Source: Romanomermis culicivorax
Lineage: Eukaryota > Nematoda > Enoplea > Mermithida > Mermithidae
Assembly: GCA_963922205.1 (NCBI GenBank)
Contig: CAWUHX010000168.1
Span: forward strand, 387,501-451,500
Length of the DNA stretch: 64,000 nt
Direction of reading: 5' to 3'
Shown here: positions 4,132 through 64,000 of the stretch, in pieces
How positions within the stretch are numbered: position 1 is the first letter of the stretch
Layout: every line of letters begins with the position of its first letter
Made by a program: the position numbers and the translations under genes
Notes under the pieces: model-generated
Seen by the model: only the letters and a program-made list of their open reading frames with translations
Database searches by the model: none
Told to the model about the DNA's origin: nothing

Positions 4132-4173
4132 AGTACTCTGCGTTGATACCACTGCTTAATCTGATAGAGTGTG
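4132..4173 (-). other. Amplification adapter plus barcode (contaminant), left of gap 1
   Basis: The reverse complement ends in AAGCAGTGGTATCAACGCAG followed by AGTACT, the template-switch/PacBio ultra-low-input PCR adapter as I remember it. Next to the Ns is ATCTGATAGAGTGTG, which looks like the complement of a 16-base PacBio sample barcode (recalled, not looked up). It is not genomic. Confidence 0.93.
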
Positions 4174-4273
4174 NNNNNNNNNNNNNNNNNNNNNNNNNNN
4201 NNNNNNNNNNNNNNNNNNNNNNNNNNNNNNNNNNNNNNNNNNNNNNNNNNNNNNNNNNNNNNNNNNNNNNNNN
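4174..4273. other. Assembly gap 1 (100 N)
   Basis: Exactly 100 Ns lie between two inverted copies of the same adapter. Because the flanking 3.6-kb blocks duplicate each other, the gap probably represents a contig overlap and not missing sequence. Confidence 0.97.
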
Positions 4274-4316
4274 ACACACTCTATCAGATTAAGCAGTGGT
4301 ATCAACGCAGAGTACT
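4274..4316 (+). other. Amplification adapter plus barcode (contaminant), right of gap 1
   Basis: The barcode-like ACACACTCTATCAGAT and a T are followed by AAGCAGTGGTATCAACGCAG and AGTACT. Genomic sequence resumes at 4317 and matches position 492. Confidence 0.93.
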
Positions 4317-7300: not shown

Positions 7301-7938
7301 AATTCGAATTCTTCATTCACATTATTTTTTTCTGCCCAATTTTTGGGGAAAATTCTATTTTTTCGCTTTAAACATGGTTTTTTTGCTCAAAAATTTTTGC
7401 GGTTTTTGAATAAATCTAACCAGAAATTCGAATTTTTACCTCTATAATGCTTTTTTCTGTTGAATTTTTGCGAAGATTTTCACGGAATTTGACTCAAGAA
7501 TTGAATTTTTGGCTCAAAAAATGCCTTTTTTCCATGTAAAATTTTGGAAAATTTCTGTTGAAATTCAACCGAAAATTCAAATTTTTCGCTCGAAACTTTT
7601 TTTTTCTGCAGAATTTTCGGAAAATTTTCGACGTAATTCATCCAAAATATGTCAATTTTACGCTCAACAAAGCTTCTTTTGTGTAGAATTTCCGCAAAAT
7701 TTCCACGAAAATTAACCAAAGGTTGAATTTTCCCCTCAGAAAATGTTTTTTTTTATACAGAATTTTGTATAATTTCCGACAAAATTCAACCGAAAATTCG
7801 AATTTTTCGTCCAAAAAAAGCTTTTCATGTCGATTTTTGCAAAATTTTGGACGAAACTGAACTGAAAATTCAAGTTTTTTCGCTCTAAAAATGCTTTTTT
7901 GTTTAAGAATTTTCGGAAATTTTAGACGAAATTCAACC
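4317..7938. repeat. Copy 2 of the 3.6-kb near-identical duplication across gap 1
   Basis: Matches 492-4131 with small homopolymer differences. From 7939 the sequence continues past the point where copy 1 is cut by adapter, so this copy is the one joined to the unc-119 locus. Confidence 0.88.
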
Positions 7939-32200: not shown

Positions 32201-33353
32201 AGCTAAGGTTAAACCTAAGCCTAAGCTTAAGGGTAAGCCTAAGCTTAAGGGTTAGCCCATGGTTAAGCCTAAGCTCAAGCCAAAGCCTAAGTCTAAGCCT
32301 GAGCCTAAGCACAAGGCTGAGCGTAAGCCTAAGCCTAGGCCCAAGCCTAAGCCTATGGTCAAGCCTAAGCACAAGCCTAAGCCTAGGCTTAGGGTTAAGC
32401 CTAAGCTTGAGCCTACCTAAGCCTAAGGTTAAGCCTAAGCATAAGGCTAAGCTTTAGCCTAAGCCTAAGACTAAGGTTAAGCCTAAGCTTAAGGCTAAGC
32501 CTTAGCCTAAGCCTAAGCCTAAGACTGAGCCTAAGACTAAGCCTAAGCCTAAGCACAAGGCTAAGCCTAAGGTTTAGCCTAAGCCTAAGACTAAGCCTAA
32601 ACAAAAGGCTAAGCCTAAGCCTAAGCCCAAGTCTAAGCCTAAGGCTAAGACTAAGCCTAAGAAAAAGGCTAAGCGTAAGCCTAAGCCTTGGCCCAAGCCT
32701 AATCCTAGGCTCAAGCCTAGGCCCAGGCCGCACCTGTAAGACCTCCAACTAGTTGGGCGGGGGGGAATCCGAAATTTGGGGGGGGGGGGCGGAAAAAGTC
32801 GAAATTTTTCCCAAAAAATACACTTTTTTGCAAATTTCTTTAATTTTTTCCAAATTGCGGGGGGGGGGGGGGTTTGGGTGATCTTGGGTACATGGTTGGC
32901 CAAGTTGGGGGGGGGGTCACTCCCAAGTACAGGTATGGCCCAGGCCTAAGCCTAAAGGTAAGCCTTAGCTTCGGGTTTTTCTACTTCAAAAACTGTCCTT
33001 TGACGCCAAACGTCCAAAACCCGTCGCAACGAGCGTAAAGTCGCCGGGTCGGCGTAACGGGCCACGTGTTCGAAACTTTTGTCCAAAATTTCTCGAAATT
33101 GCGCCGAAAATTGCGGCCATTTTCGACGCGAATTTTGTACAACGTCGTTACATAAATGTACCAAATTTAAAAGACGTTTACAGGAACGTTCCTTTTTCAA
33201 TTCTTGATGCCAAATTTTGACGATAGATTGCGAATGTTTACGATGATGTAAAATCCACAACGACAAAGTTTGTATGCTAGGTAGGGTGTTGTTTAAATCG
33301 GCGAGTTTTTTTTGTAATGCTTGTTCGTTGAAACCGCCGCCGGCGCCGGCCAT
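20015..33353 (-). CDS. RPRD1: RPRD1/CREPT-type RNA polymerase II CTD-binding protein (5 exons, 404 aa)
   Basis: Join of complement 33353-32985, 31065-30817, 28241-28021, 24300-24166 and 20255-20015: 1215 nt, phases matching. Residues 5-120 form a CID domain (QTLSLWILHHRKHSQSIVKI, then the equivalents of LxLxNDVIQNSRRK and LRRVLDVWRQRTVF). The C-terminal third matches the RPRD coiled-coil dimerisation region (FPADIADVTKLANL, AERFSQVVSEADHLLKIYN, KEYKEKLQQM, ESLPDMSKLPDF, LPSAGDLFTLK). Family members bind the phosphorylated RNA polymerase II C-terminal repeats and help remove Ser5 phosphate through RPAP2; C. elegans has CIDS-1/CIDS-2. The protein is longer than human RPRD1B (326 aa). Residues ~124-280 form a low-complexity linker with poly-Pro, poly-Ala, a KRRRR basic cluster and Ser/Asp runs. 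Nuclear location is inferred. Confidence 0.93.
20256..22330. repeat. RPRD1 intron 4, part 1: T-rich ~17-20 bp repeats with ~340-bp higher order
   Basis: Short units such as TTTTTAAATTTTTCTAGAAT, TTTACAATTTTCAATTTTTA and CTTCCAGAATTTTTATTTGT recur. Larger blocks resembling each other repeat about every 340-350 bp (for example CTAGAATTTTTCA near 20650, 21000, 21345 and 21700). No conserved coding or RNA feature is seen. Confidence 0.7.
22331..23080. other. RPRD1 intron 4, part 2: A/T-rich, no clear unit
   Basis: Loose AAATTCTAAAATTTC-like strings without a stable period. I see no gene or RNA. Confidence 0.6.
23080..24150. repeat. RPRD1 intron 4, part 3: ~60-bp tandem repeat
   Basis: About 17 copies of a unit: TTTACACCAAATTCTGAAAT, GTGATATGTGTAACATGATG, ACATAATTATGCAAATTTTAAC. 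The copies at 23450-23820 are nearly identical and the outer ones degenerate. On the minus strand it carries GTGTAAAGTT, related to the GTGTAAAGTG core of the intron 3 array but in opposite orientation. Confidence 0.88.
24166..24300 (-). CDS. RPRD1: RPRD1 exon 4
   Basis: 135 nt, acceptor AATTTAG, donor CAG|GTATAG. Encodes QLIAQFPADIADVTKLANLA and AERFSQVVSEADHLLKIYNT, collinear with human IASLPQEVQDVSLLEKI and AAERLSKTVDEACLLLAEYN. No ATG-initiated reading frame marks it; it was found by frame and homology. Confidence 0.93.
24365..26470. repeat. RPRD1 intron 3: 23-24 bp minisatellite
   Basis: Roughly 85 tandem copies of GTGTAAAGTGAACTTTTGGA plus AAAA. Variants include TGTATAGTGAAC, GTGTAAAATGAACTTTTAG and units missing part of the core. 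Larger blocks repeat (24480-24590 resembles 25385-25490; 24790-25060 resembles 25870-25960), so the array grew partly by block duplication. The long SLYTFSK-type frames on the minus strand are the repeat translated, not genes. Confidence 0.93.
26471..28020. other. RPRD1 intron 3, remainder: TTAATTAA-rich with TGACGTCA sites
   Basis: A/T-rich sequence full of ATTAATTAATT. Scattered GTGTAAAGTGAA units recur (26595, 26850, 26940-27060, 27200, 27410, 27510). At least a dozen TGACGTCA or one-mismatch sites fall between 26578 and 27705, often as TTTTTGACGTCAGCAA or GATGACGTCAGAGAAA. No coding evidence. Confidence 0.7.
28021..28241 (-). CDS. RPRD1: RPRD1 exon 3
   Basis: Acceptor GTATTTTTAG, donor TTCG|GTAATA. 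Encodes TPPINVAAASLSDDGDDYSP, SAATPLLSTQLSTEEQLINL, PKIEDLISLLKNMERPPSAD and VEVR. The DDDY.SP...GPLLT arrangement of human RPRD1B is recognisable. The Arg codon is split with exon 4. Confidence 0.88.
28242..30816. repeat. RPRD1 intron 2: degenerate AATTCGAATTTTT-type repeats
   Basis: Units of about 20-40 bp with AAAATTCGAATTTTTTCATC, AAAATTCTAATTTTTTC and similar. The orientation appears to change near 29000: GAAAAATTGGAATTTTGATC before it, ATCAAAATTCGAATTTTTTC after it. It is related to the arrays in unc-119. No gene is seen. Confidence 0.65.
30817..31065 (-). CDS. RPRD1: RPRD1 exon 2 (low-complexity linker)
   Basis: 249 nt, phase 0 at both ends. Acceptor TTTCTAG, donor GAC|GTAAAA. Encodes AAFLDKLVYAVTSNLSSEML, then a six-proline run, SSSSGD, a six-alanine run, KRRRRTDDGG and SSSNNNGDND. 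The exon is strikingly GC-rich (GCC/GCG/GAC repeats) against its intron background. The linker is poorly conserved, so support comes from phase, splice sites and composition. Confidence 0.82.
31066..32195. repeat. RPRD1 intron 1, part 1: degenerate AT-rich repeats
   Basis: Loose 20-40 bp repeats such as AAAAATTCGAATTTTGACGA and ATTTTGATCAAAAAAT. Same family style as intron 2. No gene is seen. Confidence 0.65.
32200..32732 (-). repeat. Interstitial telomere-like array, degenerate (TTAGGC)n
   Basis: On + it reads CCTAAGCCTAAGCCTAAGCC with many point variants (CCCAAG, CTTAAG, ACTAAG), so the minus strand is (TTAGGC)n, the telomere unit of most chromadorean nematodes. It is about 530 bp long and mutated throughout, so it is old and not an active chromosome end. 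A further patch lies at 32936-32970. It lies inside RPRD1 intron 1, close to the exon 1 donor. Confidence 0.88.
32748..32935. repeat. G-homopolymer cluster between telomere-like patches
   Basis: At least four runs of 8-14 consecutive G (near 32757, 32778, 32859 and 32907) are separated by A/T-rich sequence with CACTTTTTTGCAAATTTC. The + strand could form G-quadruplexes. Run lengths may be unreliable. Confidence 0.75.
32936..32970. repeat. Second telomere-like patch abutting RPRD1 exon 1
   Basis: CAGGCCTAAGCCTAAAGGTA and AGCCTTAGCT, i.e. (TTAGGC)-like on the minus strand, starting about 15 bp inside the intron from the exon 1 donor. Confidence 0.7.
32985..33353 (-). CDS. RPRD1: RPRD1 exon 1 (CID domain)
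   Basis: 123 codons from ATG at 33353, starting MAGAGGGFNEQALQKKLADL. The frame stays open to 32952. Phase and homology call for a donor after GTTTTTGAA (GAA|GTAGAA at 32985); an alternative is ACA|GTTTTT nine bases earlier. The donor is weaker than the others in the gene. Confidence 0.88.
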
Positions 33354-33642: not shown

Positions 33643-33724
33643 ATTATGTTCTAATGCTACGCAACCGAACATAAAACACTTATTTTGTAAATTCTAAGTC
33701 AAACGTGAATTTATTAGGAGGAGG
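33643..33724 (-). repeat. B2 split direct repeat (3' end of element)
   Basis: ATTATGTTCTAATGCTACGC ... GTGAATTTATTAGGAGGAGG, the same as 35315-35397. It contains AATAAA on the minus strand (33715-33710), so B probably carries the 3'-end signal. The GGA run continues to about 33737 here, longer than in B1. Confidence 0.92.
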
Positions 33725-33945
33725 AGGAGGAGGAGGCTTTAGGCTACAGTATGTCGCACTTTACAATCGTAATGTACATGAAACAATCTACAAAAACGCT
33801 CAAACCAATGATGTGAAAAAGGAAATGCAATAACAGACAAAACAAAATTCTTTGATAAGAAAAATGACGCCGCGTCCTGTTGAAATCTCTGTGTAATGTT
33901 GATGAACCAATTTAACGGGAAAAGAGAAAAACTGAATCGCAAAAC

Positions 33946-33951
33946 TTTATT
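33946..33951 (-). terminator. Possible poly(A) signal downstream of the recombinase ORF
   Basis: AATAAA on the minus strand, about 100 nt after the recombinase stop codon. Confidence 0.4.
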
Positions 33952-34053
33952 TTCAAGCGTGGGCGTACTGCTAGAAGAAACATAAATTTAGCCGGCTCAA
34001 ATCTAAAAGAGAAAGGGGGATATTTATACACAACCTCAGAGAAGAGAAATTGA

Positions 34054-35037
34054 TCAAAATATTTTAGACAAGCTGTCCATTTGAACGCCTTTTTTAATGT
34101 ACATGTTTCTACAAAATTCGGTCTTCCACCGCCCTTGTATCTGGATTACGTGATCTGGAACACCTGCAGCTGCTGCTGCTGTAGCACCTCCTGATCGCAA
34201 ACTGTGAGTGCCAAACTTGGTTGCATCCATCTGCAGCGTTTCCAAAGTATTCAGGAGCTGTTCCCTGAATCTACCATATGAAAGTGGCTGGGATGATTTC
34301 AACTGCTCATGATTGTGACTTTTGGAAATGGCTCGAAACAGTAGTTGTTCGGAATTAGGCAATATCTTTGCCGTGTGGAAATAATTGAGGAGTGCCGTAA
34401 AAGGGCAAGAAAGATGAGGTACTTTAGGAATTGTTATAGTAGATCCTGTCCGGTAGACATCTGTCTTGCTTTGACGAATTTTTACTGTAAATGAGGATGA
34501 TCCGAATAAGATATCGCTAGCTCGCAAATTTAGGATTTCTCTAATTCGAAGAAAACCAGCATAACCCAGAGTGACCATGGCTAAAAGGCGTAGATTGGCC
34601 AGGCTAGGATTGTCCGTACAAAAGACTGAAATTCTGTGGATTATGTCTGGAGTGAATGGTTCCTTCCTATTATGTTTGGCAGAGCAGTGACGACGTGCCG
34701 CTTCGATCACTGATTTGATGATGAAGCTGTCACTAAAAGCATGCAAGTTCGCGATTTTGTGGAACCAACACAAGGCGGCGTGTGCTTGGGCTAAACTGGA
34801 TGAGCTATGGAATTGTGTCTTATCTGTCAAAAAAGCTGCGAATTCAAGTGGATCTGCGGGAAAGACTGTAACATTGTTGGTGATCGCCCAATTTGACCAT
34901 TTTTTAAATTGAGATGTGTACACAGTAAGGGTCGATTGCGAACGTGATGCTAAAATGGCGGTGCGAATCGAATGTAAGCGAAGTGATGATAGGTTGGGAT
35001 TGCCGAGAAGTAGTTGCAAGCTTGTGTAATTAGTCAA
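34054..35037 (-). CDS. Tyrosine recombinase (integrase) of the PAT-type element
   Basis: 327 codons. The N-terminal half has a SAM-like core-binding region. The catalytic half carries the full set expected for tyrosine recombinases: Arg164 (GYAGFLRIREIL), Lys191 (QSKTD), His278-x-x-Arg281 (GTHSLRSGGATA), Trp304 (QGRW) and Tyr313 (NMYIKKG). The enzyme would cut and rejoin DNA through a 3'-phosphotyrosine to insert the circular cDNA. No ATG is available before residue 154; the frame opens at TTG and, just upstream, at a polypyrimidine tract followed by TTGTTTTAG (about 35051). The ORF is therefore probably reached by splicing. No inactivating change is seen. Confidence 0.95.
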   Translation of the reverse strand: MTNYTSLQLLLGNPNLSSLRLHSIRTAILASRSQSTLTVYTSQFKKWSNWAITNNVTVFPADPLEFAAFLTDKTQFHSSSSLAQAHAALCWFHKIANLHAFSDSFIIKSVIEAARRHCSAKHNRKEPFTPDIIHRISVFCTDNPSLANLRLLAMVTLGYAGFLRIREILNLRASDILFGSSSFTVKIRQSKTDVYRTGSTITIPKVPHLSCPFTALLNYFHTAKILPNSEQLLFRAISKSHNHEQLKSSQPLSYGRFREQLLNTLETLQMDATKFGTHSLRSGGATAAAAAGVPDHVIQIQGRWKTEFCRNMYIKKGVQMDSLSKIF

Positions 35038-35047
35038 ATCGAAGTAG

Positions 35048-35118
35048 TCTAAAACAAGGGATAAGTTAAGGAAGTTAAGGGAGAGAAGAGAGAAAGAGAT
35101 AGAGGGAGGGTGGGTGGG
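35048..35118 (-). promoter_or_regulatory. Polypyrimidine tract and acceptor before the recombinase ORF
   Basis: On the minus strand a run of C/T of about 50 nt (CCCTCCCTCTATCTCTTTCT and onward) ends in CCTTGTTTTAG. The recombinase frame is open immediately after it (AC TAC TTC GAT TTG). This is a textbook 3' splice site; the matching donor was not identified. Confidence 0.6.
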
Positions 35119-35319
35119 AATTGAGATGAGCTAAACCGAGCTGGGTAGCACTTGTGAGATATGAGGAGAAATGCAGAGCCAAGGAGCAAAAGCGACTATG
35201 CTGTAGCAAAAAGCACCCAAAGTGAAGCAGCGGAGAGAAACAGCTGACGCTGTTTCCTAAAGAACAGATGCTCAGGGAGCATCGTTTTCCTACAGTATAC
35301 CCAAAATAAGTATAATTAT
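35119..35319 (-). repeat. A2 split direct repeat (internal)
   Basis: 201 bp, reading the same as 38884-39084. It directly follows B1 on the minus strand, overlapping at the shared ATTAT core. Confidence 0.95.
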
Positions 35320-35397
35320 GTTCTAATGCTACGCAACCGAACATAAAACACTTATTTTGTAAATTCTAAGTCAAACGTGAATTTATTAGGAGGAGGT
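35315..35397 (-). repeat. B1 split direct repeat (internal)
   Basis: Matches B2 (33643-33724). It carries AATAAA on the minus strand (35387-35382), 30 nt after the RT/RNase H stop codon, a likely 3'-end signal for the gag-pol transcript. Confidence 0.93.
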
Positions 35398-35416
35398 AAA
35401 GTACATTTTTCTGAGC

Positions 35417-38095
35417 TCAAGACTGAAAACGTAGGGCCAGAAAACGAGATTTGAAAAGGGAAGGCTTAAAAATGCTCTTTTCCAGTGTTGCTGCAACAAG
35501 CGAGATGCTGGATTCTGGCAAAATTAAAATTTCTTGAATGAAATGGCTTTCTAAGAGGGTTGGAAAAAGGACTGGCCAGTAAGGTGCACTTTTCCATTCT
35601 GGAATTACTAGAGTACCTCGACATCTGCAAGATAGAGCGAAATTAACGGCTTTTATGACTAGATAAGGTGGTGGAACGAGCCAGTTGATGTCTTGAGTCC
35701 AAGAAGTTGTGAAGCAGTCTACAGCTTCTGTGCCAGGATTCCAAAAACGAGAGTTGAATCTATGAAGCTTTCTGTTGTAAAAAGTTGCAAATCTGTCAAC
35801 TGTATGAGGACCCCATTGTGCATCAATCCATTCAAAGACCTCGTTTGTTATTGACCAATCATCGTAGTCAACTATTCTGCTAAGAGCGTCTGCAAATTCA
35901 TTCATGCTCCTTGGTATCCAGTGTACCATTAACTCCAGGTTATATCTTTCACAGAGTTCGAAGATTTTTATAGACAGAATATTAATATGCTGTTTCATAC
36001 TTCCTTTTTTCAAGATGAAAGGTAAAGCCTGGTTATCCGTAAACCACAGAACTCGACAGTTCTTTAGTTTTCCCGCAAAGGAAACAATCCCATATTCAAT
36101 GGTTTTCAATTCTCGCCAAGTGGCGCCCATTTCCTTTGCTTCTCCTTGCCACTGTGTATGTGCGATCATTTTACTCACATCATTTGTTTTGTGGAAGTTT
36201 TTCTTCATTGCTTTATTCAAAATTTGAACTAGTTCGAAAATTTTTTCGTCATAATTTGAATCGTCAAAAAATTGGTTTTGAGAGGGGTAGAGATGAGAAT
36301 AGGAGTCTTTTTTCTGTTTATCATATAAAAATTTTTCTCCATATGCATCGCTGGGAAACAAACCGTCCCTGTCAGTTGGCATATCATTCCAAATGCGTTC
36401 TATAGACGCAGACAAAAGCCGTGCAATAGACGGACCACTGGCACAAAGACCATTCACATTTTTGCAGAGGTCATTTCCTCTTCTGCCACAACAACCGCTT
36501 TCAACAGGCGCTAGTAGAGGCCGTGCAAAAAAAGGACCATTGGCACAAAAGCCATTCAAATTGCCATCGTTACTCGAGAGGTGTCGCATTTCTTTTGTTT
36601 TCATTTTGTTGGGTTTCTCTATCTCCTCCAGAACTTGAGATGCGTGATGGTTTTTGCAGAGTATGGCTTTTGGATAAACAAAAGAGGCAGCAGATGTTTT
36701 GCTGGCATCAGAAAAAATAATAACGATGGGAATATGATCTTTTGTTTCTAATGTTTTTGGCTTTAGTTGAGTGAAAAACGTGACCCAAAATAACAAGTCT
36801 GTTTTGCAAAATTTTGATATGGGGAACACATGGTCCCATAGAGGATTATGTCCCTGACTGTGGGAAATGATATGATGAAAAAAGCTTTTTGTTCGAAGCA
36901 GAGATAACTTACCTAGAACAAGAGACGTTGAGATAATCAAGCCAGCACAAAAGGCTAGGGATCTAATTTTGCAACTACTTTGATTAGAAAGATTTTCTAA
37001 ATTCTTCAAGATATAAAGTCTTTTCTCCTCCGGTAGAGAGATTTGGAATAGCTTAAGATTAATGTGGAAACCAAGCCAAGTAAGGGACTGAGTGACCTTC
37101 CATATAGATTTTTCCGAGTTAAAAGAAAAGCCAGCTTTGAACAAGGTCTCTTTAACAAAGAAAGCATGTTTCTGTGCTACTGCTTTATCATTGGAAAAAC
37201 CAATGCCATCGTCTAGGTAAAGGACGAGCTTGATTCCCTCAGACCTGAGGAACGTAACTATGGGCTTAAGCAGCTTCGTGAAAAGATAAGGAGCTGTACT
37301 GAGGCCAAAAGGTAAAACGTTAAAAACGAAGGAATATGATTTAGGGCCGAAATTCCAAGAAAAACCCAGAAAAGTACGGGATTCTTCGGAAATTTTTATG
37401 TGGTAATAGCCTTTTTTCAAGTCAAATGAAAACATGAAACCGTCTCTAGACCAAAGTTGAGATGCAATTCTGTAGTCATCTAATTTGAAACTTACAGGAG
37501 TTAGGTGAGTATTTACATAACGAAGGTCTAGAATAAGGCGTTTCTTACCATTCCGCTGAGAGGAAACACTGAGAGGGCTGATTACTGCAGGTTTATGACT
37601 AACCAAGGAGATGCAGTCATTTTTCAACAGCTCTAAAATTGAATGGGAGACGAAATTTGAATTTTTGAGTGAACTTCGATTGTTCTTGAAATATCTGGAG
37701 GAAGGAATAGATGAGAAAGGTAATTTATAACCTTCAGACAATATGTTGATGTGATCCTGACTGGCTTGAATAGATCGCCAGAAAGGGACGGATTTCTTAA
37801 GATTTTGAACATTGAAATATTCCAATTTCCTCCACAAGCTTAGAAGATCTGAATTATCAGAAATTCCTGTTAGGATCCCACACAATCGAAAAATGCATAA
37901 TTCGTCTACAGTAAACTTACAATCGTGATCCTGCAATGCACGTTTAATTTCTTTGCCTTGAACTGAACGTTCCAGGCTCGTTTCGGTTGGGGCAATTTGA
38001 TCTCCAGTGACCGAACGATCCGCACTGGAAACAAGGCTTTGCTGTAGACGTCGAGGCTTGCTGACGGTTCGGGAGGAAGAAATTCGTGGCCCCAT
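35417..38095 (-). CDS. Reverse transcriptase-RNase H of the PAT-type element (ORF2)
   Basis: About 892 codons from the first ATG left of gap 2. RT motifs in order: KKRLILDLRYVN, FSFDLKKGYYHIKI, VLPFGLSTAPYLFTKLL and the active site LYLDDG (near 37208-37222). RNase H motifs: FSDASKTSAA, WRELKTIEYG, FTDNQALPF and HWIPRSMNEFADALSR, with the acidic residues present. After RNase H comes WGPHTVDRFATFYNRKLHRF, then FNSRFWNPGTEAVDCF and PPPYLVIKA, a conserved block of DIRS-type elements often called a methyltransferase-like domain (from memory). ORF2 overlaps the end of gag by about 150 nt in another frame. The frame is open further upstream into the gap, so the exact start is uncertain; frameshifting from gag is possible. 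Confidence 0.94.
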   Translation of the reverse strand: MGPRISSSRTVSKPRRLQQSLVSSADRSVTGDQIAPTETSLERSVQGKEIKRALQDHDCKFTVDELCIFRLCGILTGISDNSDLLSLWRKLEYFNVQNLKKSVPFWRSIQASQDHINILSEGYKLPFSSIPSSRYFKNNRSSLKNSNFVSHSILELLKNDCISLVSHKPAVISPLSVSSQRNGKKRLILDLRYVNTHLTPVSFKLDDYRIASQLWSRDGFMFSFDLKKGYYHIKISEESRTFLGFSWNFGPKSYSFVFNVLPFGLSTAPYLFTKLLKPIVTFLRSEGIKLVLYLDDGIGFSNDKAVAQKHAFFVKETLFKAGFSFNSEKSIWKVTQSLTWLGFHINLKLFQISLPEEKRLYILKNLENLSNQSSCKIRSLAFCAGLIISTSLVLGKLSLLRTKSFFHHIISHSQGHNPLWDHVFPISKFCKTDLLFWVTFFTQLKPKTLETKDHIPIVIIFSDASKTSAASFVYPKAILCKNHHASQVLEEIEKPNKMKTKEMRHLSSNDGNLNGFCANGPFFARPLLAPVESGCCGRRGNDLCKNVNGLCASGPSIARLLSASIERIWNDMPTDRDGLFPSDAYGEKFLYDKQKKDSYSHLYPSQNQFFDDSNYDEKIFELVQILNKAMKKNFHKTNDVSKMIAHTQWQGEAKEMGATWRELKTIEYGIVSFAGKLKNCRVLWFTDNQALPFILKKGSMKQHINILSIKIFELCERYNLELMVHWIPRSMNEFADALSRIVDYDDWSITNEVFEWIDAQWGPHTVDRFATFYNRKLHRFNSRFWNPGTEAVDCFTTSWTQDINWLVPPPYLVIKAVNFALSCRCRGTLVIPEWKSAPYWPVLFPTLLESHFIQEILILPESSISLVAATLEKSIFKPSLFKSRFLALRFQS

Positions 38096-38883
38096 TAGAG
38101 AAGTTTCGGCGCCAGCCAATCGGGACCGTTTTTTGACTGGCTGTAGAGGAAAAACGTAANNNNNNNNNNNNNNNNNNNNNNNNNNNNNNNNNNNNNNNNN
38201 NNNNNNNNNNNNNNNNNNNNNNNNNNNNNNNNNNNNNNNNNNNNNNNNNNNNNNNNNNNCACACTCTATCAGATTAAGCAGTGGTATCAACGCAGAGTAC
38301 TAGAGGAAAAACGTAACAACGATTTTTTCGATTTTAGGGCCCGGCTTTCTGCTGATCGAATCCGACGTTCGTCTTCGTCGTCCTCAGCTAACTCGTCGTG
38401 TTCGTATTCCAAGGCGGTCTTCCAACCACCTTCGCTACGATCTGCGATTCTAATCAATTTTTGACGATGTAAAATCGTATCGTCTATATCTTCCAGAATC
38501 TCGCGTGCCTTGGTCCCTGATGAGGACGAATCCCGATTCAAATAATATTTTAGGTCTTTCAAATCGTTCATAAGTTCCTCATTAAATTCGAACTGTCGAC
38601 GATTTCCTTGGCGTTTCCACGAAATTTCCGATGCTTTTTGAGCAAAACCAGAATTTTTTCGTCTTTTGTTGATTCTTTCGACGTCTGTAGGAGAGGATCG
38701 TTTCTTTGACAAATGTTTTTTGACACTATCGTCGATCAAAATTTTTAAACGATCATTGGCGCTATAATCGTCTGAGTCTGTAGAAGAAGAATGATGACGT
38801 CGACGGTGGGAGGCTGCTGGCCCGTTTTGACCGATATTGTTGTCCTGTAAAACGACGTCGTTTTGAGGAGGGCTCTCAGTCAT
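37944..38883 (-). CDS. Gag-like protein with CCHC zinc knuckle (ORF1, interrupted by gap 2)
   Basis: Starts at ATG 38883, one base after the A1 repeat. The first part (38883-38302) is charged and Ser-rich, with HRRRHHSSS, KKRSS and KRRKN basic clusters and an acidic DELAEDDEDERR stretch. The part left of the gap ends in CFQCGSFGHWRSNC, a perfect C-x2-C-x4-H-x4-C zinc knuckle, and stops at 37944. The two parts are one reading frame cut by adapter plus 100 N. A 15-base repeat (38145-38159 and 38302-38316) marks the true join, so no sequence appears to be missing. Gag proteins package the element RNA. Confidence 0.86.
38160..38259. other. Assembly gap 2 (100 N)
   Basis: 100 Ns with AGAGGAAAAACGTAA on both sides once the adapter is removed. 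The gap is a scaffolding placeholder inside gag, not absent sequence. Confidence 0.96.
38260..38301 (+). other. Amplification adapter plus barcode (contaminant), right of gap 2
   Basis: CACACTCTATCAGATT, then AAGCAGTGGTATCAACGCAG and AGTACT: the same adapter and barcode as at 4274. It creates a spurious protein end on the gag fragment. Confidence 0.94.
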
Positions 38884-39084
38884 AATTGAGATGAGCTAAA
38901 CCGAGCTGGGTAGCACTTGTGAGATATGAGGAGAAATGCAGAGCCAAGGAGCAAAAGCGACTATGCTGTAGCAAAAAGCACCCAAAGTGAAGCAGCGGAG
39001 AGAAACAGCTGACGCTGTTTCCTAAAGAACAGATGCTCAGGGAGCATCGTTTTCCTACAGTATACCCAAAATAAGTATAATTAT
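38884..39084 (-). repeat. A1 split direct repeat (5' end of element)
   Basis: 201 bp, identical as far as I can read to 35119-35319. It is the 5' end of the element and presumably contains its promoter; I see no clear TATA box. Confidence 0.95.
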
Positions 39085-39240: not shown

Positions 39241-42200
39241 TTAAATTTTGAATTCAAATTCGAATTCTAAATCAGAAATGGTAATCTGAATTTGAATTTT
39301 GAATTTTAATTTTAAATTTGAATTTTGAATTTGAATTTTGAATTTGAATTTGAATTTGAATTTGAATTTGAATTCTGAATTTGAATTCTGAATTTGAATT
39401 CTGAATTTAAATTCTGAATTTGAATTTTGAGTTTGAATTCTGAATTTGAATTCTGAATTTGAATTCTGAATTTGAATTCTGAATTTGAATTCTGAATTTG
39501 AATTCTGAACCTGAGATCTGAAGCTGAATTCTGATGCTGAATTATGAACCTGAATTCTGAAGATCAATTTTGAAGCTAAATTTTGAAATTAAATTCTGAA
39601 CCTGAATTCTGAACCTGAATTCTGAACCTGAATTCTGAACCTGAATTCTGAACCTGAATTCTGAACCTGAATTCTGAACCTGAATTCTGAACCTGAATTC
39701 TGAACCTGAATTCTGAACCTGAATTCTGAACCTGAATTCTGAACCTGAATTCTAAACCTGAATTCTGAACCTGAATTCTGAACCTGAATTCTGAACCTGA
39801 ATTCTGAACCTGGATTCTGAACCTGAATTCTGAACCTGAATTTTGAACCTGAATTCTGAACTAAAATTCTGCAGCTGAATTCTTAGGCTGAATTATTAAA
39901 CTGAATTCTGAAGCTGAATTCTGAAGCTGAATTCTGAACCCGAATTCTGAACCTGAATTCTGAACCTGAATTCTGAACCTGAATTCTGAACCTGAATTCT
40001 GAACCTGAATTCTGAACCTGAATTCTGAACCTGAATTCTAAACCTGAATTCTGAACCTGAATTCTGAACCTGAATTCTGAACCTGAATTCTGAACCTGGA
40101 TTCTGAACCTGAATTCTGAACCTGAATTTTGAACCTGAATTCTGAACTAAAATTCTGCAGCTGAATTCTTAGGCTGAATTATTAAACTGAATTCTGAAGC
40201 TGAATTCTGAAGCTGAATTCTGAACCCGAATTCTGAACCTGAATTCTGAACCTGAATTCTGAACCTGAATTCTGAACCTGAATTCTGAACCTGAATTCTG
40301 AACCTGAATTCTGAACCTGAATTCTGAACCTGAATTCTGAACCTGAATTCTGAACATAAATTCTGAACGTGAATTTTGAACTAAAATTCTGCAGCTGAAT
40401 TCTTAAGCTGAATTATTAAACTGAATTCTGAAGCTGAATTCTGAACCTGAATTCTGAACCTGAATTTTGAACTAAAATTCTGCAGCTGAATTCTTAGGCT
40501 GAATTATTAAACTGAATTCTGAAGCTGAATTCTTAAACTGAATTCTGAACCTAAATTCTGAAGCTGAAATCTGAACCAGAATTCTGACGCTGAATTTTGA
40601 ACTATAATTCTGCAGCTGAATTCTGAAGCTGAATTCTTTAACTAAATTCTGAAACTGAATTCTGTAGATGAATTCTGAACCTGAATTCTGAACCTGAATT
40701 CTGAAAGTGAATTCTGAACCTGAATTCTGAACCTGAATTCTGAACCTGAATTCTGAACCTGAATTCTGAACCTGAATTCTGAACCTGAATTCTGAACCTG
40801 AATTCTGAACCTGAATTCTGAACCTGAATTCTGAACCTGAATTCTGAACCTGAATTCTGAACCTGAATTCTGAACCTGAATTCTGAACCTGAATTCTAAA
40901 CCTGAATTCTGAACCTGAATTCTGAACCTGAATTCTGAACCTGAATTCTGAACCTGGATTCTGAACCTGAATTCTGAACCTGAATTTTGAACCTGAATTC
41001 TGAACTAAAATTCTGCAGCTGAATTCTTAGGCTGAATTATTAAACTGAATTCTGAAGCTGAATTCTGAAGCTGAATTCTGAACCCGAATTCTGAACCTGA
41101 ATTCTGAACCTGAATTCTGAACCTGAATTCTGAACCTGAATTCTGAACCTGAATTCTGAACCTGAATTCTGAACCTGAATTCTGAACCTGAATTCTGAAC
41201 CTGAATTCTGAACCTGAATTTGAACCTGAATTCTGAACCTGAATTCTGAACCTGAATTCTGAACCTGAATTCTGAACCTGAATTCTGAACCTGAATTCTG
41301 AACCTGAATTCTGAACCTGAATTCTGAAAATGAATTTTGAACTAAAATTCTGCAGCTGAATTCTTAGGCTGAATTATTAAACTGAATTCTGAAGCTGAAT
41401 TCTGAACCTGAATTCTGAAGCCGAATTCTGAACCTGAATTCTGAACCTGAATTCTGAACCTGAATTCTGAACCTGAATTCTGAACCTGAATTCTGAACCT
41501 GAATTCTGAACCTGAATTCTGAACCTGAATTCTGAACCTGAATTCTGAACCTGAATTCTGAACCTGAATTCTGAACCTGAATTCTGAACCTGAATTCTGA
41601 AAATGAATTTTGAACTAAAATTCTGCAGCTGAATTCTTAGGCTGAATTATTAAACTGAATTCTGAAGCTGAATTCTGAACCTGAATTCTGAACCTGAATT
41701 CTGAACCTGAATTTTGAACTAAAATTCTGCAGCTAAATTGCTAGGCTGAATTATTAAACTGAATTCTGAAGCTGAATTCTTAAACTGAATTCTGAAACTG
41801 AATTTTGTAGCTGAATTCTGAACCTGAATTCTGAGCCTGAATTCTGAACCTAAATTCTGAAGCTGAAATCTGAACCAGAATTCTGACGCTGAATTTTGAA
41901 CCTAAATTCTGAAGCTGAATTCTGAACTGAATTATGAAACCTAAATTGTGAAACCTGAATTCTGAACCTCAGTTCTGCACCTGGATTCTGAACCTGAATT
42001 CTGAAGCTGAATTTTGAACTAAAATTCTGCAGCTGAATTCTTAGGCTGAATTATTAAACTGAATTCTGAAGCTGAATTCTTAAACTGAATTCTGAAACTG
42101 AATTTTGTAGCTGAATTTTGTAGCTGAATTCTGAACCTGAATTCTGAACCTAAATTCTGAAGCTGAAATCTGAACCAGAATTCTGACGCTGAATTTAGAA

Positions 42201-43200
42201 CTAAAATTCTGCAGCTGAATTCTGAAGCTGAATTCTTCAACTAAATTCTGAAACTGAATTCTGTAAATGAATTCTGAACCTGAATTCTGAACCTGAATTC
42301 TGAACCTGAATTCTGAACCTGAATTCTGAACCTGAATTATGAACCTGAATTCTGAACCTGAATTCTGAACCTGAATTCTGAACCTGAATTCTGAACCTGA
42401 ATTCTGAACCTGAATTCTGAACCTGAATTCTGAACCTGAATTCTGAACCTGAATTTTGAACTAAAATTCTGCAGCTAAATTGTTAGGCTGAATTATTAAA
42501 CTGAATTCTGAAGCTGAATTCTTAAACTGAATTCTGAACCTGAATTCTGAGCCTGAATTCTGAACCTAAATTCTGAAGCTGAATTCTGAACTGAATTATG
42601 AAACCTAAATTGTGAAACCTGAATTCTGAAGCTGAATTCTGCACCTGAATTCTGAACCTGAATTCTGAAGCTGAATTTTGAACTAAAACTCTGCACCTAA
42701 ATTCTTAAGCTTAATAATTAATTTGAATTATGAAACTGAATTCCGAAGTTGAATTTTGAAGCTGAATTATAAATCTGAATTCTGAATTCCGAATCTAGAT
42801 CTTTATTTCTGAAATTGAATATAAACTCTGAATTCGAATTTGAATCCTGAATCTGAATTCTGAATCTGAATTCTGAATTCCGAATCTAGGTCTTTATTTC
42901 TGAAATTTAATATATAAAGTCTGAATTCGAATTTGAATCCTGAATCTGAATCCTGAATTCTAAATCTGAATCGTAAATCTGAATTCTGAATCTGAATTCT
43001 AAATCTGAATTCTGAATTCCAAATCTAGGTCCTTATTTCTGAAATTGAATATAAACTCTGAATTCGAATTTGGATTCTGAATCTGAATATGAATCCTGAA
43101 TTCTAATACGGATTCTGAATATGAATTTTGAATTTGAATTTGGATTCTGAACCTGAATTCTAAATTCCGAATCTGAATTCATATTCCGGATCTGAAATCT
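39241..43200. repeat. 13-bp minisatellite (GAATTCTGAACCT)n with higher-order blocks
   Basis: Nearly 4 kb of 13-bp units. 39241-39530 is the GAATTTGAATTCT variant and 39590-42700 the GAATTCTGAACCT form. The far end (42780-43200) is degenerate, with CTAGATCTTTATTTCTGAAA blocks. A marker block (GAACTAAAATTCTGCAGCTG, then AATTCTTAGGCTGAATTATT) recurs at 39857, 40147, 40377, 40468, 40592, 41003, 41339, 41614, 41716, 42013, 42197 and 42458, showing block duplication. Minus-strand frames (RFRIQVQNSGSEF) are the repeat read every 39 nt, not a gene. Confidence 0.95.
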
Positions 43201-43291
43201 TACAGTAAGATCACGTGATACGATATGCATGTACAAGTGATGCATACCTTACAATATGATAATGTACAGGTACATTTCATGTACTGAAAAG

Positions 43292-46864: not shown

Positions 46865-47753
46865 TTATATAACACTTTCCATTTTTTCACTATTCGTCTT
46901 ATCTGACGCGTTTAAAATCTTTGGAATGCTAGTGTCAAATATGGCGGCAGCGCTCGATGGCCCTGAACTCAACAATCTTGTCAATGATTGGCGTTTCAAG
47001 CTTTTAATCAAAGATACACTATTTGTCGAACCATTTCTACCATTGCCACTACATTTGCCCCTGTTCGATAAGACAATGGCACTCGCATGCTGCCCTGTTG
47101 GATCATGGATGGAACCTTTTGGACCAAGAAATTGCGCAATGGCGATGTTCCGAAATCGCGGACTACAAGCTGAATAGACAAAAAATGGCAACGCCCCGTT
47201 GACCATACTCAAAATGTTGGCCCAGGCAGTCAAAGCTTGATAGTTTTTCCAATAGGCCACGTCGGACGTTCGTACGGCAGCTCGTACGAAAACGACGATG
47301 TGCGGTGTTTCAAAAATTAAATGGCACAAAGTTGTCGCCAGGCTTAGCCTCGTAATACACAATTTTTGTTCCATCGACGCTCCGTTAGTGCCGCCACACG
47401 TCAATTTTTTCCTCGACCAAAATAAATGATAATTGATCGATAAAGTAGTCGATGCTAAAATCAACATCGGCATTATTATCGTCATCAACGAATATAAATA
47501 ATAATACGTATTTTCCAATTGTCGATATTTCCTAGGAACGGTGTAGGCATAGATTTTTATCGACTGGCTTTCGTTGTTTAGACATTCGGCGCTGAATAAT
47601 TGTCGAGCCAAAATTGTTGGGATTTGAAGGCAAATGGAACCAAGGAATGTTAGAATCATAGCCGTATATGTATTACGCATTGTACACCAATTTCGGGATC
47701 TGATTGGGAAAGCGACTAGTAAATAGCGTTCCAACGACATGATGACAGTTAAC
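46865..47753 (-). CDS. GPCR exon 2
   Basis: Acceptor ATTTTACAG. The split TG|G codon gives Trp120. Covers the end of TM3 through TM7 and the C-terminal tail; stop TAA at 46867-46865. Confidence 0.9.
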
Positions 47754-48181
47754 CTGTAAAATAATTTTTTTATATTTTTTTGTGTTTTTTTTATTTTTTT
47801 TTGTTTTTTTTTTAATTTTTACCATATAGCGAATGTAGCAAACGTATTCGTATTGAACATCGTATACGGCAACGAATTCCAATAAAACCAATTAATCGAC
47901 GGATTATTCGTCAATTGCGGAATGGATTTCAAATAATTGGGCAATACGCAATATAAACTCAGCGTGTTAGCGACGGCTTTCGCGGCCAAAGTTCGTATCG
48001 TAGTCGACGATCGCAAAAATTCATGTCGATAAACCGCCAAATTGGCCAAGTTACCCGCTGTGGACAATGTAATTAAAAGTGGGTATAAATTTAGCATCAA
48101 ATTTTTCTCCACTTGACCCATCAAATCCTCCGTAGCGGCACTTTTCGATTTACAAAATGGTAGAAAGTAAGTGAAATTCAT
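46865..48181 (-). CDS. Rhodopsin-family peptide GPCR, FMRFamide-receptor-like (2 exons, 415 aa)
   Basis: Join of complement 48181-47823 and 47753-46865: 1248 nt with a 69-bp intron. Seven hydrophobic segments: ~31-51, 62-84, 107-127, then after the Cys-containing loop two more, CITRLSLATTLCHLIFETPH (TM6) and LTAWANILSMVNGALPFFVY (TM7). After TM3 comes Glu128-Arg129-Tyr130, the DRY-type motif. The block FAIWLTVIMSLERYLLVAFP, IRSRNWCT resembles the Drosophila FMRFamide receptor and C. elegans FRPR family, which also lack the usual TM3 cysteine. An N-F-T glycosylation site is at residue 2. The ligand is unknown. TM7 ends LPFFVYSAC in place of NPxxY. The cytoplasmic tail of about 100 residues is Ser/Asn/Lys-rich. 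The frame is open upstream of the ATG to a splice acceptor, so the N-terminus could be longer. Confidence 0.88.
47754..47822 (-). other. GPCR intron (69 bp)
   Basis: Donor TATATG|GTAAAA, acceptor TTTTACAG, poly-A/T interior. The size is typical for a small nematode intron and contrasts with the kilobase introns of the other two genes. Confidence 0.88.
47823..48181 (-). CDS. GPCR exon 1
   Basis: Encodes residues 1-119 and two bases of Trp120: the extracellular N-terminus, TM1 (NLYPLLITLSTAGNLANLAV with the conserved GN), TM2 and most of TM3. The ATG at 48181 was chosen because it gives an N-terminus of normal length. Confidence 0.85.
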
Positions 48182-60329: not shown

Positions 60330-63300
60330 ACATTTGTTATCGCATAAAATGTAAATTCACAAAAAAAGTACATGGTTTAATACAATTTAACTTGAAAAAT
60401 ATCATCATTTTGGAACTTTTTTCCAAAAAATGACGCAATTCGAACGTAAGATCATCCTTTTTGGACCTAAAAAACCAAAAAATTGGACATTTTACACTGT
60501 ATTTTACTACAAATTGTAAACTTTAGTATAGTTTACAATTACAATTTAACTTGAAAAATATCATCATTTTGATATTTTTTCCAAAAAAATGACGTCACTC
60601 GAACGTAAAATCGTCCTTTCCTAACCTAAAAAACCAAAAATTGGACATTTTGTACTGTAAATTACAACAAATTGTAAACTTTATTATAGTTTACAATTAC
60701 AATTTAACTTGAAAAATATCATCATTTTGAATTTTTTTCCAAAAAATGGCGTGATTTGAACGTAAAATTATCCCATTGGTACCTAAAAACCAAAAATAGG
60801 ACACTTTACACTGTATATTACTACAAATTGTAAAGTTTAGTATAGTTTACAATTTAAAAAATTAAAAAATTAACACTTTACACTGTATATTTTCTATATA
60901 TTGTAAACTTTAGTATAGTTTACAATTACAATTTAACTTGAAAAATATCATCATTGGGGATTTTTTTCCAAAAAAAAGACGCAATTCGAACGTAAAATCG
61001 TCCTTTTTGGACCTAAAAAACCAAAAAATTGACATTTTACACTGTATTTTACTACAAATTGTAAACCTTATTATAGTTTACAATTACAATTTAACTTGAA
61101 AAATATTATCCTTTTGGTATTTTTTTCTAAAAAATGACGTCATTCGAACGTAAAATCATCCTTTTTGGACCTAAAAATCCCCAAAAATTGGACACTTTAC
61201 ACTGTATATTACTACAAAATGTAAACCTTAGTATAGTTTACAACTACAATTTAACTTGAAAAATATCATCATTTTGGTATTTTTTTCCAAAAAATGACGT
61301 CATTCGAACGTAAAATCATCCTTTTTGGACCTAAAAATCAAAAAATAGGACATTTTACACTGTATATTAGAACAAATTGTAAACTTTAGTATAGTTTACA
61401 ATTACAATTTAACTTGAAAAATATCATCATTTTGAATTTTTTTCCAAAAAAATGACGTCATTCGAACGTAAAATCATCCTTTTTGGACCTAAAAAACCAA
61501 AAATTGGACATTTTACACTGTATTTTACTACAAATTGTAAACTTTATTATAGTTTACAATTACAATTTAACTTGAAAAATATCATCATTTTGAATTTTTT
61601 TCCAAAAAAAATGACGTCATTCGAACGTAAGATCATCCTTTTCGGACCCAAAAAACCAAAAAATTGGACATTTTACACTGTATATTACAACAAATTGTAA
61701 ACTTTATTATAGTTTACAATTACAATTTAACTTGAAAAATATCATCATTTTGAATTTTTTTCCAAAAAAATGACGTCATTCGAACGTAAGATCATCCTTT
61801 TTGGACCTAAAAAACCAAAAAATTGGACATTTTACACTGTATACAACTACAAATTGTAAACTTTATTATAGTTTACAATTACAATTTAACTTGAAAAATA
61901 TCATCATTTTGAATTTTTTCCAAAAAAATGACGTCATTCGAACGTAAGATCATCCTTTTTGGACCTAAAAAACCAAAAAATTGGACATTTTACACTGTAA
62001 ATTACTACAAATTGTAAACTTTATTATAGTTTACAATTACAATTTAACTTGAAAAATATCATCATTTTGGGTTTTTTTCCAAAAAATGACGTCTTTCGAA
62101 CGTAAAATCACCCTTTTGAGACCTAAAAATCAAAAAATTGGACATTTTACACTGTATTTTACTACAAATTGTAAACTTTAGTATAGTTTACAATTACAAA
62201 TTAACTTGAAAATAATCATCATTTTGGTATTTTTTCCAAAAAATGATGTGATTCGAACGTAAAATTATCCTTTTTGGACCTAAAAAACCAAAAAATTGGA
62301 CATTTTACACTGTAAATTATTACAAATTGTAAACTTTAGTATAGCTTACAATTACAATTTAACTTGAAAAATATCATCATTTTGGTATTTTTTTCCAAAA
62401 AAACACGCAATTCGAAGGTAAAATCATCCCTTTTTGGACCTAAAAATCAAAAAATTGGACATTTTACACTGTATTTTACTACAAATTGTAAACTTTAGTA
62501 TAGTTTACAATTACAATTTAACTTGAAAAATATCATCATTTTGGAATTTTTTTCCAAAAAATGACGCAATTCGAACGTAAAATCATCCTTTTCGAACCTA
62601 AAAAACCAAAAATTGGACATTTTACACTGTATATTACAACAAATTGTAAACTTTATTATAGTTTACAATTACAATTTAACTTGAAAAATATCATCATTTT
62701 GGTATTTTTTTCCAAAAAATGACGTCTTTCGAACGTAAAATCACCCTTTTGAGACCTAAAAAACCAAAAATATGACATTTTACACTGTAAATTATTACAA
62801 ATTGTAAACTTTAGTATAGTTTACAATTACAAATTAACTTGAAAATAATCATCATTTTGGTATTTTTTCCAAAAAATGATGTGATTCGAACGTAAAATTA
62901 TCCTTTTTGGACCTAAAAAACCAAAAAATTGGACATTTTACACTGTAAATTATTACAAATTGTAAACTTTAGTATAGCTTACAATTACAATTTAACTTGA
63001 AAAATATCATCATTTTGGTATTTTTTTCCCAAAAAAACACGCAATTCGAAGGTAAAATCATCCCTTTTTGGACCTAAAAATCAAAAAATTGGACATTTTA
63101 CACTGTATATTACTACAAATTGTAAAGTTTAGTATAGCTTACAATTACAATTTAACTTTAAAAATATCATCATTTTGGGTTTTTTTCCAAAAAAATGACG
63201 TCATTCGAACGTAAAATCACCCTTTCCTAACCTAAAAAACCAAAAATTGGACATTTTACACTGTAAATTACAACAAATTGTAAACTTTATTATAGTTTAC

Positions 63301-64000
63301 AATTACAATTTAACTTGAAAAATATCATCATTTTGAATTTTTTCCAAAAAAAATGACGTCATTCGAACGTAAGATCATCCTTTTTGGACCTAAAAAACCA
63401 AAAAATTGGACATTTTACACTGTATATTACAACAAATTGTAAACTTTATTATAGTTTACAATTACAATTTAACTTGAAAAATATCATCATTTTGGTATTT
63501 TTTCCAAAAAAATGACGCAATTCGAACGTAAAATCATCCTTTTTGGACCTAAAAAACCAAAAAATTGACATTTTACACTGTATATTACAACAAATTGTAA
63601 ACTTTAGTATAGCTTATAATTACAATTTAACTTGAAAAATATCATCATTTTGGATTTTTTTCCAAAAAATGACGTCATTCGAACGTAAAATCATCCTTTT
63701 TGGACCTAAAAAACCAAAAAATTGGACATTTTACTCTGTATATTACAATAAATTGTAAACTTTAGTATAGCTTACAACTACAATTTAACTTGAAAAATAT
63801 CATCATTTTGGTATTTTTTCCAAAAAATGACGTCATTCGAACGTAAAATTATCCTTTTTGGACCTGAAAAACCAAAAAATAGGACATTTTACACTGTATA
63901 TTACAACAAATTGTAAACTTTAGTATAGCCTACGAATACAGTTCAACTTGAAAAATATCATCATTTTGGGTTTTTTTACCCAAAAATTACGTGATTCGAA
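60330..64000. repeat. 159-bp satellite, about 23 copies, runs off the window
   Basis: The marker TGACGTCATTCGAACGTAA or variants occurs at 61135, 61295, 61453, 61612, 61771, 61929 and 62088, mean spacing about 159 bp. Each unit contains AATTTAACTTGAAAAATATC, a CRE-like TGACGTCA (or TGACGCAA/TGATGTGA), ATCATCCTTTTTGGACCTAA, TTGGACATTTTACACTGTA and an 11-bp inverted repeat AATTGTAAACT...AGTTTACAATT with a 7-base loop. The frame seen at 61452-61700 is a read-through of two units, not a gene. Confidence 0.95.

Follow-up and report, generated by a model that had tools for sequence, protein, structure and literature searches.

How does a retrotransposon that encodes a tyrosine recombinase (YR) and carries split repeats join itself to a genome, and by what route is its recombinase expressed? 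The question is raised by a locus of the mermithid nematode Romanomermis culicivorax within a stretch of 64,000 nucleotides, hereafter the window (contig CAWUHX010000168.1, positions 387,501 to 451,500, of the 359-Mb assembly GCA_963922205.1). Across 33644-39080 the minus strand of the window holds an element of the PAT type, in which two repeats, A and B, alternate with the coding regions in the order A1-gag-pol-B1A2-YR-B2. Having compared this copy (C168) with its sister copies, labelled by contig, and its family (F1) with others (F2 to F4), we regard it as probable that it is a recently inserted nematode-form Pat1-like element with a cycle in which RNA would start at position 97 of A (A97), a splice would exchange pol for YR, and the joined repeats (B.A) would be recombined at a fixed point.

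The element and its repeats

The element proper (33644..39080, minus strand) is bounded by a target base at 33643 and by target again from 39081, limits drawn from the outer repeat ends of copies in this genome, this one included (23 for A, 21 for B; see below). A1 (38884..39080) and A2 (35119..35315) are 197 bp long and of the same sequence, A1 forming the 5' leader of gag; B1 (35316..35396) and B2 (33644..33724) are 81 bp long and carry AATAAA at 35387 and 33715, respectively. Read to the limits of identity, the copies form a 201-nt pair (35119-35319 and 38884-39084) and an 82-nt pair (33643-33724 and 35315-35396), each 100% identical; these share an ATTAT overlap where they meet inside the element, and the same five letters mark both outer ends, just as the original prediction, made from the letters of the window, had noted. 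That prediction had also claimed the PAT type, the A1...B1A2...B2 architecture and a recent insertion, and had proposed aligning A1 with A2 and B1 with B2. All of this is borne out: the repeats are split and direct, reverse transcriptase (RT) and YR are both present, and the members of each repeat pair are identical, with 0 differences at 278 repeat positions, a figure that caps divergence only at ~1%. A young, recently inserted window copy is thus supported. Across ten copies, mismatches between A1 and A2 number 0 in C168, C305, C48 and C26, 2-3 in C120 and C278, 7 in C16, 10 in C28, 11 in C7 and 16 in C380.

The section of PMC4157794 that defines nematode-form Pat1-like elements lists split direct repeats, a gag zinc knuckle, RT, a methyltransferase (MT) domain, a YR in the same direction, and internal repeats between MT and YR. 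Judged by its sequence, the window element is a nematode-form Pat1-like retrotransposon (PAT, order DIRS) under this definition: its repeats are split as A1-B1-A2-B2, its YR runs in the same direction, and its internal repeats lie between MT and YR, a placement that rests on a weak MT-like match. The repeats are direct, without the inverted terminal repeats and internal complementary region of DIRS1-like elements, and B1A2 precedes YR, without the internal repeats that follow YR in Ngaro-like elements.

The coding regions, all on the minus strand, begin with gag, which lies in two parts. The first (38302..38883) opens with an ATG at 38883-38881 and runs to an assembly artefact described below, and the second (37944..38159) bears a zinc-knuckle pattern, CFQCGSFGHWRSNC (CX2CX4HX4C), spotted by eye, and ends in a TAA at 37946-37944; a Pfam search with the two gag pieces returned no match. 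The pol frame (35417..38158), +1 relative to gag, holds RT at ~37525-37061 (Pfam RVT_1, 1.3e-18), followed by weak RNase H (~36079-35876) and Dam-like MT (~35866-35657) domains. The YR exon (34054..35048) matches Pfam Phage_integrase at 1.8e-9 and, in PDB, Cre-type recombinases at 1.6e-6 and weaker; in the best of these matches, Tre, the Arg, Lys, HxxR motif and Trp are aligned, residues that we take to be catalytic, and the Tyr is invariant across the three YRs compared. All five, Arg, Lys, HxxR, Trp and Tyr, are present; the original prediction had spoken of a recombinase with every catalytic residue. A fold of YR from one sequence reached a mean pLDDT (predicted local distance difference test) of 38.9 and was not used. 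Searches of IMG/VR and prokaryote genomes with single proteins, which reach close relatives only, gave no confirmed match. Some genomic copies keep pol and YR open.

A fixed break point and a preferred target

In stretches L031-L067, fetched from this genome, and in the window, A has 40 complete starts and B has 39 complete ends, 17 of each at internal junctions. The remaining, outer ends number 23 for A and 22 for B, or 21 for B once C86b and C86c, which have a common flank, are merged; the truncated ends of C342 and C49 were excluded. Every one of the 23 A ends and 21 B ends lies at a single break point, two of the A ends being ambiguous. Outer A ends begin target|TTATAC, with one substitution each in C125, C38, C315 and C380, and outer B ends read ACATAA|target (ACATAC in C22). 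The target, in the coding sense, is mostly TAN|W: A stands at -2 in 21/23 (P 7e-9; the exceptions are C380 and C38), T at -3 in 17/23 (P 5.5e-5), and TA together in 16/23, while at +1, on the side of B, the base is A or T in 19/21.

Paired sister-copy ends, together with a paralogue in which one of the sister sites is empty, indicate insertion without target duplication. The empty paralogue, that of the C28 site (L055:150-373), reads TTTCAATAT|ACCTATG and is 83% identical over 225 nt; its only gap is far from the joint, so that there is neither duplication nor loss. The paralogue is a copy of a repeat that lies at a different locus from C28, and of 10 joined sites compared with the fetched loci C28 alone yielded such a paralogue.

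Sister copies and traces of replication

The genome returned at least 41 matches to a junction query, at least 40 to B, at least 124 to the YR protein and at least 70 to the pol protein, some of them pieces of one gene. The original prediction had called for a search for other full-length copies, and 20 stretches from it, taken with the window, supplied five that are near-identical to the window copy (C305, C48, C26, C120 and C278); the 17 B.A junctions and 23 outer A ends come from L031-L067 and the window. The same 20 stretches and the window also hold two A-YR-B copies without gag and pol that are inserted at the exact ends (C10 and C69, in stretches L043 and L044), two B.A junctions followed by gag (C16 and C117b), a structure that would fit a circle or a tandem, the rearranged C199, and diverged or truncated copies.

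Copy C199 (L050, G000:C199:308900-316800) has the reverse complements of B and A at its outer ends, an internal join at A96 and snap-back joins in A. Since these reverse complements form the outer ends, it would have integrated via an inverted B.A junction, and both of its ends fall at the exact break point of that junction. C103, in turn, joins at A97 following a short duplicated piece. The break points of these two copies suggest that RNA starts near A97 (38988, minus strand; the A2 equivalent is 35223) and that A1-96 is rebuilt from A2. The sequence at A97, TTCACTTT, resembles what we take to be an initiator motif. Annealing between repeats belongs to the published replication model.

Ordinary homologous recombination between repeats, independent of YR, could also have produced C10, C69, C16 and C117b, and to this origin we give even weight. 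The 197- and 81-bp repeats are long enough for it, and the resulting structures are the same either way. The exact inverted B.A ends of C199 show only that an odd, YR-less form integrated via the B.A site; they have no direct bearing on the other four copies.

A palindrome at the B.A junction

The B.A junction is an imperfect palindrome (35302..35359, minus strand), and the break, between 35316 and 35315, falls at the 3' foot of its inner stem. Two further hairpins follow in A2, one with a 7-bp stem (35267..35283; 39032-39048 in A1) and one with an 8-bp stem (35237..35256; 39002-39021 in A1). Folded as DNA, the junction hairpin alone (59 nt) has a z of -5.9, and a 137-nt stretch comprising the junction and the next two hairpins has a z of -7.0. 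As controls, A1 alone is unremarkable in RNA folding (z -1.78, 13/200 shuffles as good) and the B2 end alone reaches z -2.8 (3/200 shuffles as good). With RNA parameters, the folding of the junction is equalled or bettered by 54/3171 sliding segments across the 64 kb and by 0/254 inside the element.

A two-stem scan covered 24 pre-YR segments, namely those of F1-F4 and 20 chosen from the at least 124 YR matches. A two-stem hairpin stands at the equal position in 14 of them (10 distinct junction sequences), with scores of 30-38, against a median of 19 and a maximum of 32 for 96 shuffles; the two lowest (30 and 31) thus overlap the best shuffles. Within the family of the window the junction is nearly invariant, and the covariation lies between families, the YRs of F3 and F4 being 40% and 43% identical to that of the window (F4 over the last part). 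Eighteen distinct junctions were aligned, 9 of which come from among the 17 junctions that belong to the family of the window, and from them RNAalifold recovered 18 pairs unaided. With that structure pairing holds in 96.6% of cells, against 88.1% in shuffled alignments (0/500), and cells changed on both sides number 24 against 10.4 (0/500), with four compensated pairs; sliding the pairing partners by 1-3 columns leaves 45-53% paired. The break lies ~15 nt off the dyad centre in F1, F3 and F4; in F4 the two ends are in agreement, give or take an ambiguity of one or two bases, and in F3 the break is read from the A end, the contig ending there. A crossover at the dyad centre is ruled out by this position. 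A further family, at L070 (G000:C41:149300-155900), has a YR ~58% identical and a B end near that of the window's family, and the scan found no junction hairpin ahead of its YR.

A fixed break on both sides would fit the exchange of one strand, and random segregation of an overlap would not give it. It is conceivable, and we put it forward tentatively as the less probable course, that PAT recombinases act on a folded single-strand B.A hairpin in complementary DNA (cDNA), exchanging one strand at one arm in the manner of integron attC sites, and that one RNA serves for Pol or YR by one conserved splice. Several observations weigh against the proposed cycle at this point. Ten of the 24 pre-YR segments (F2 and nine other matches) have no such hairpin or give chance-like hits; the junctions that entered the alignment had been retrieved with a pattern built on inner stem and outer 3' arm, which biases them toward both; and pairs in which both sides have changed number 4 against 3.9 shuffled (331/500), which is not above chance and reflects few changes on deep branches. 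Covariation is equally expected from a symmetric double-strand binding site, which is why we hold the folded-strand proposal no higher.

A rival account, to which we allow a little under an even chance, is conventional double-strand recombination, in which the B.A of a circle would be a normal core, a short overlap would be the site of a two-strand exchange, and the palindrome would do no more than bind recombinase dimers. The covariation is compatible with such a dimer site, and at 2/23 A ends the element is extended by exactly 7 nt, a usual length for a recombination overlap. The published DIRS-1 model uses double-stranded circles as substrate. However, random segregation predicts that about half of the copies would end at the other edge of the overlap, which 21/21 B ends do not, and the off-centre position of the break in F1, F3 and F4 also speaks against it.

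Expression of the recombinase

The YR has no start codon. The first Met past the putative acceptor is residue 157 in F1 and 130 in F3, where the catalytic Arg is residue 167 and 164, respectively. A candidate intron (35049..37920, minus strand), delimited by splice-like signals, would run from a donor, GTAAGTTT, 23 nt past the gag stop to an acceptor, TTTTAG. Equivalent donors stand 14 nt past the gag stop in F3 (GTAAGCAG) and F4 (GTGAGAAA), with acceptors CTGCAG and TTTCAG ahead of YR, and in all three families the donor sits in phase 1 of the pol frame and the acceptor in phase 1 of the YR frame. Within F1 the donor is present in 14/21 stretches and the acceptor in 16/21, the remainder diverging or lacking that part. 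Other donor-like sites in pol number four in F1, one in F3 and none in F4. Since the YR lacks a start codon, and a phase-1 donor and acceptor recur in three families, a splice from just past the gag stop probably replaces pol by YR. All three families (F1, F3 and F4) have pol in the +1 frame relative to gag.

It appears unlikely that YR is instead made from an RNA of its own, starting in A2 and read from a non-AUG start or after spliced-leader (SL) trans-splicing at the acceptor. A2 does lie ahead of YR and equals A1, the gag leader, and F4 has an ATG after the acceptor; nevertheless, the late first Met in F1 and F3 and the matching-phase donor 14-23 nt past the gag stop in 3/3 families looked at argue for the splice.

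The proposed cycle

In the cycle that we propose, RNA would begin at A97 and finish in B. Unspliced, it would give Gag and, by a +1 shift, Pol; after the phase-1 splice from just past the gag stop to the YR exon it would give the recombinase instead of Pol. Reverse transcription would restore the missing ends from the internal B1A2, and YR would then recombine the joined B.A, a conserved palindrome capable of forming a hairpin, with a TAN|W target at the fixed point, leaving no target duplication.

Some details sit less comfortably with this reading. RNase H scores 16.3 bits and the Dam-like MT domain 19 bits, under their respective Pfam cut-offs of 21.6 and 28.1; the original wording that all hallmarks are present was in this respect slightly strong, RT, YR and (by eye) the zinc knuckle being found as stated. 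Two of the four other donor-like sites in F1 pol have the same phase as the proposed donor. Moreover, flank matches run on into the element for 7 nt at C305 and C158a (2/23 A ends) and for 4 nt at C168 and C48, and these could hide another break point. The least credible alternative, the original proposal of a 5-bp ATTAT core common to element and target, matches every letter at the window copy yet can be set aside for the family with near certainty, since sister copies break at the same point although positions 2 to 5 differ, and the C28 site, where empty in its paralogue, reads CAATAT|ACC. An empty site without ATTAT, which had been named as a refuting result, was thereby found for a sister copy; it disposes of the core and leaves the element intact.

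Assembly gaps and genomic surroundings

The interruption of gag (38160..38301) consists of 100 N (38160-38259) followed by a 42-nt adapter stretch (38260-38301), and the 15 nt at 38145-38159 reappear on the other side of it at 38302-38316. The spacing of A2 and A1 is 3607-3608 in C305, C48, C26, C120 and C278 and 3765 in the window copy; the sister copies are thus 157-158 bp shorter at the gap, and 157 = 100 + 42 + 15. Because these five copies lack the extra length, the interruption is an artefact, and in our reading nothing real is inserted or missing. That the N stand for lost gag sequence is ruled out by this spacing and by an analogous contig-end gap at 4174-4273. The latter, a second run of 100 N (region 4133-4315), is flanked on either side by this same adapter, and the sequences around it (492-4131 and 4317-7938) are 98.5% identical, with 6 mismatches and 45 gap openings. 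We read both gaps as unmerged contig ends, the second of which would falsely duplicate ~3.6 kb (overlap 3.65 kb).

A distance of 290 bp, as originally given, separates the edge of B2 from the ATG (33353) of an RPRD1-like reading frame with a CID domain (2e-32). Directly downstream of the first RPRD1-like exon is a degenerate TTAGGC-type array (32210-32723) that holds 31/36 of the GCCTAA in the window; repeats of this type are presumably telomere-like in nematodes. Immediately upstream of the element is a 3.9-kb 13-mer array (TGAATTCTGAACC; 39283-43202). Further away are a rhodopsin-type receptor reading frame (Srw and 7tm_1; 46865-47818, minus strand) and a 158-bp satellite of ~20 copies at 91% (60855-64000) that reaches the window end. 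The TTAGGC-type array, the Srw-type receptor and the form of the element each suggest a nematode host.

Comparison with known systems

Where they treat these elements, PMC4157794, PMC3266345, PMC6681497, PMC9210276, PMC5633606, PMC3783388 and PMC2685390 contain no description that we found of a B.A hairpin with an off-centre break or of a phase-1 YR splice; the founding 1992 PAT paper and the 2020 DIRS cDNA paper lie outside this set. With DIRS1-like elements the window element has RT, YR and a weakly matching Dam-like stretch in common, whereas those elements have inverted terminal repeats and an internal complementary region in place of split direct repeats. Ngaro and VIPER have split direct repeats too, but lack an MT domain and carry A1 at the 5' end and B1, A2 and B2 at the 3' end. 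The replication mechanism of DIRS-1 is itself described in one of these papers as proposed and not fully proven.

The comparison with bacterial integrons is one of working only, and no kinship of the elements is claimed. At attC a tyrosine recombinase uses a folded hairpin site and exchange takes place in one arm at a fixed point; the PAT B.A site has a conserved hairpin with its break in one arm, and its folding is a prediction from sequence. Linear single-stranded cDNA intermediates have reportedly been seen in DIRS. Closest of all are the nematode-form Pat1-like elements, which the window element resembles in its split direct repeats, zinc knuckle, RT, weak MT-like domain, YR direction and internal repeat position. 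As such, the element itself is another member of the known PAT kind, and the many copies of several PAT families in this one genome allow direct tests of how YR retrotransposons integrate and are expressed.

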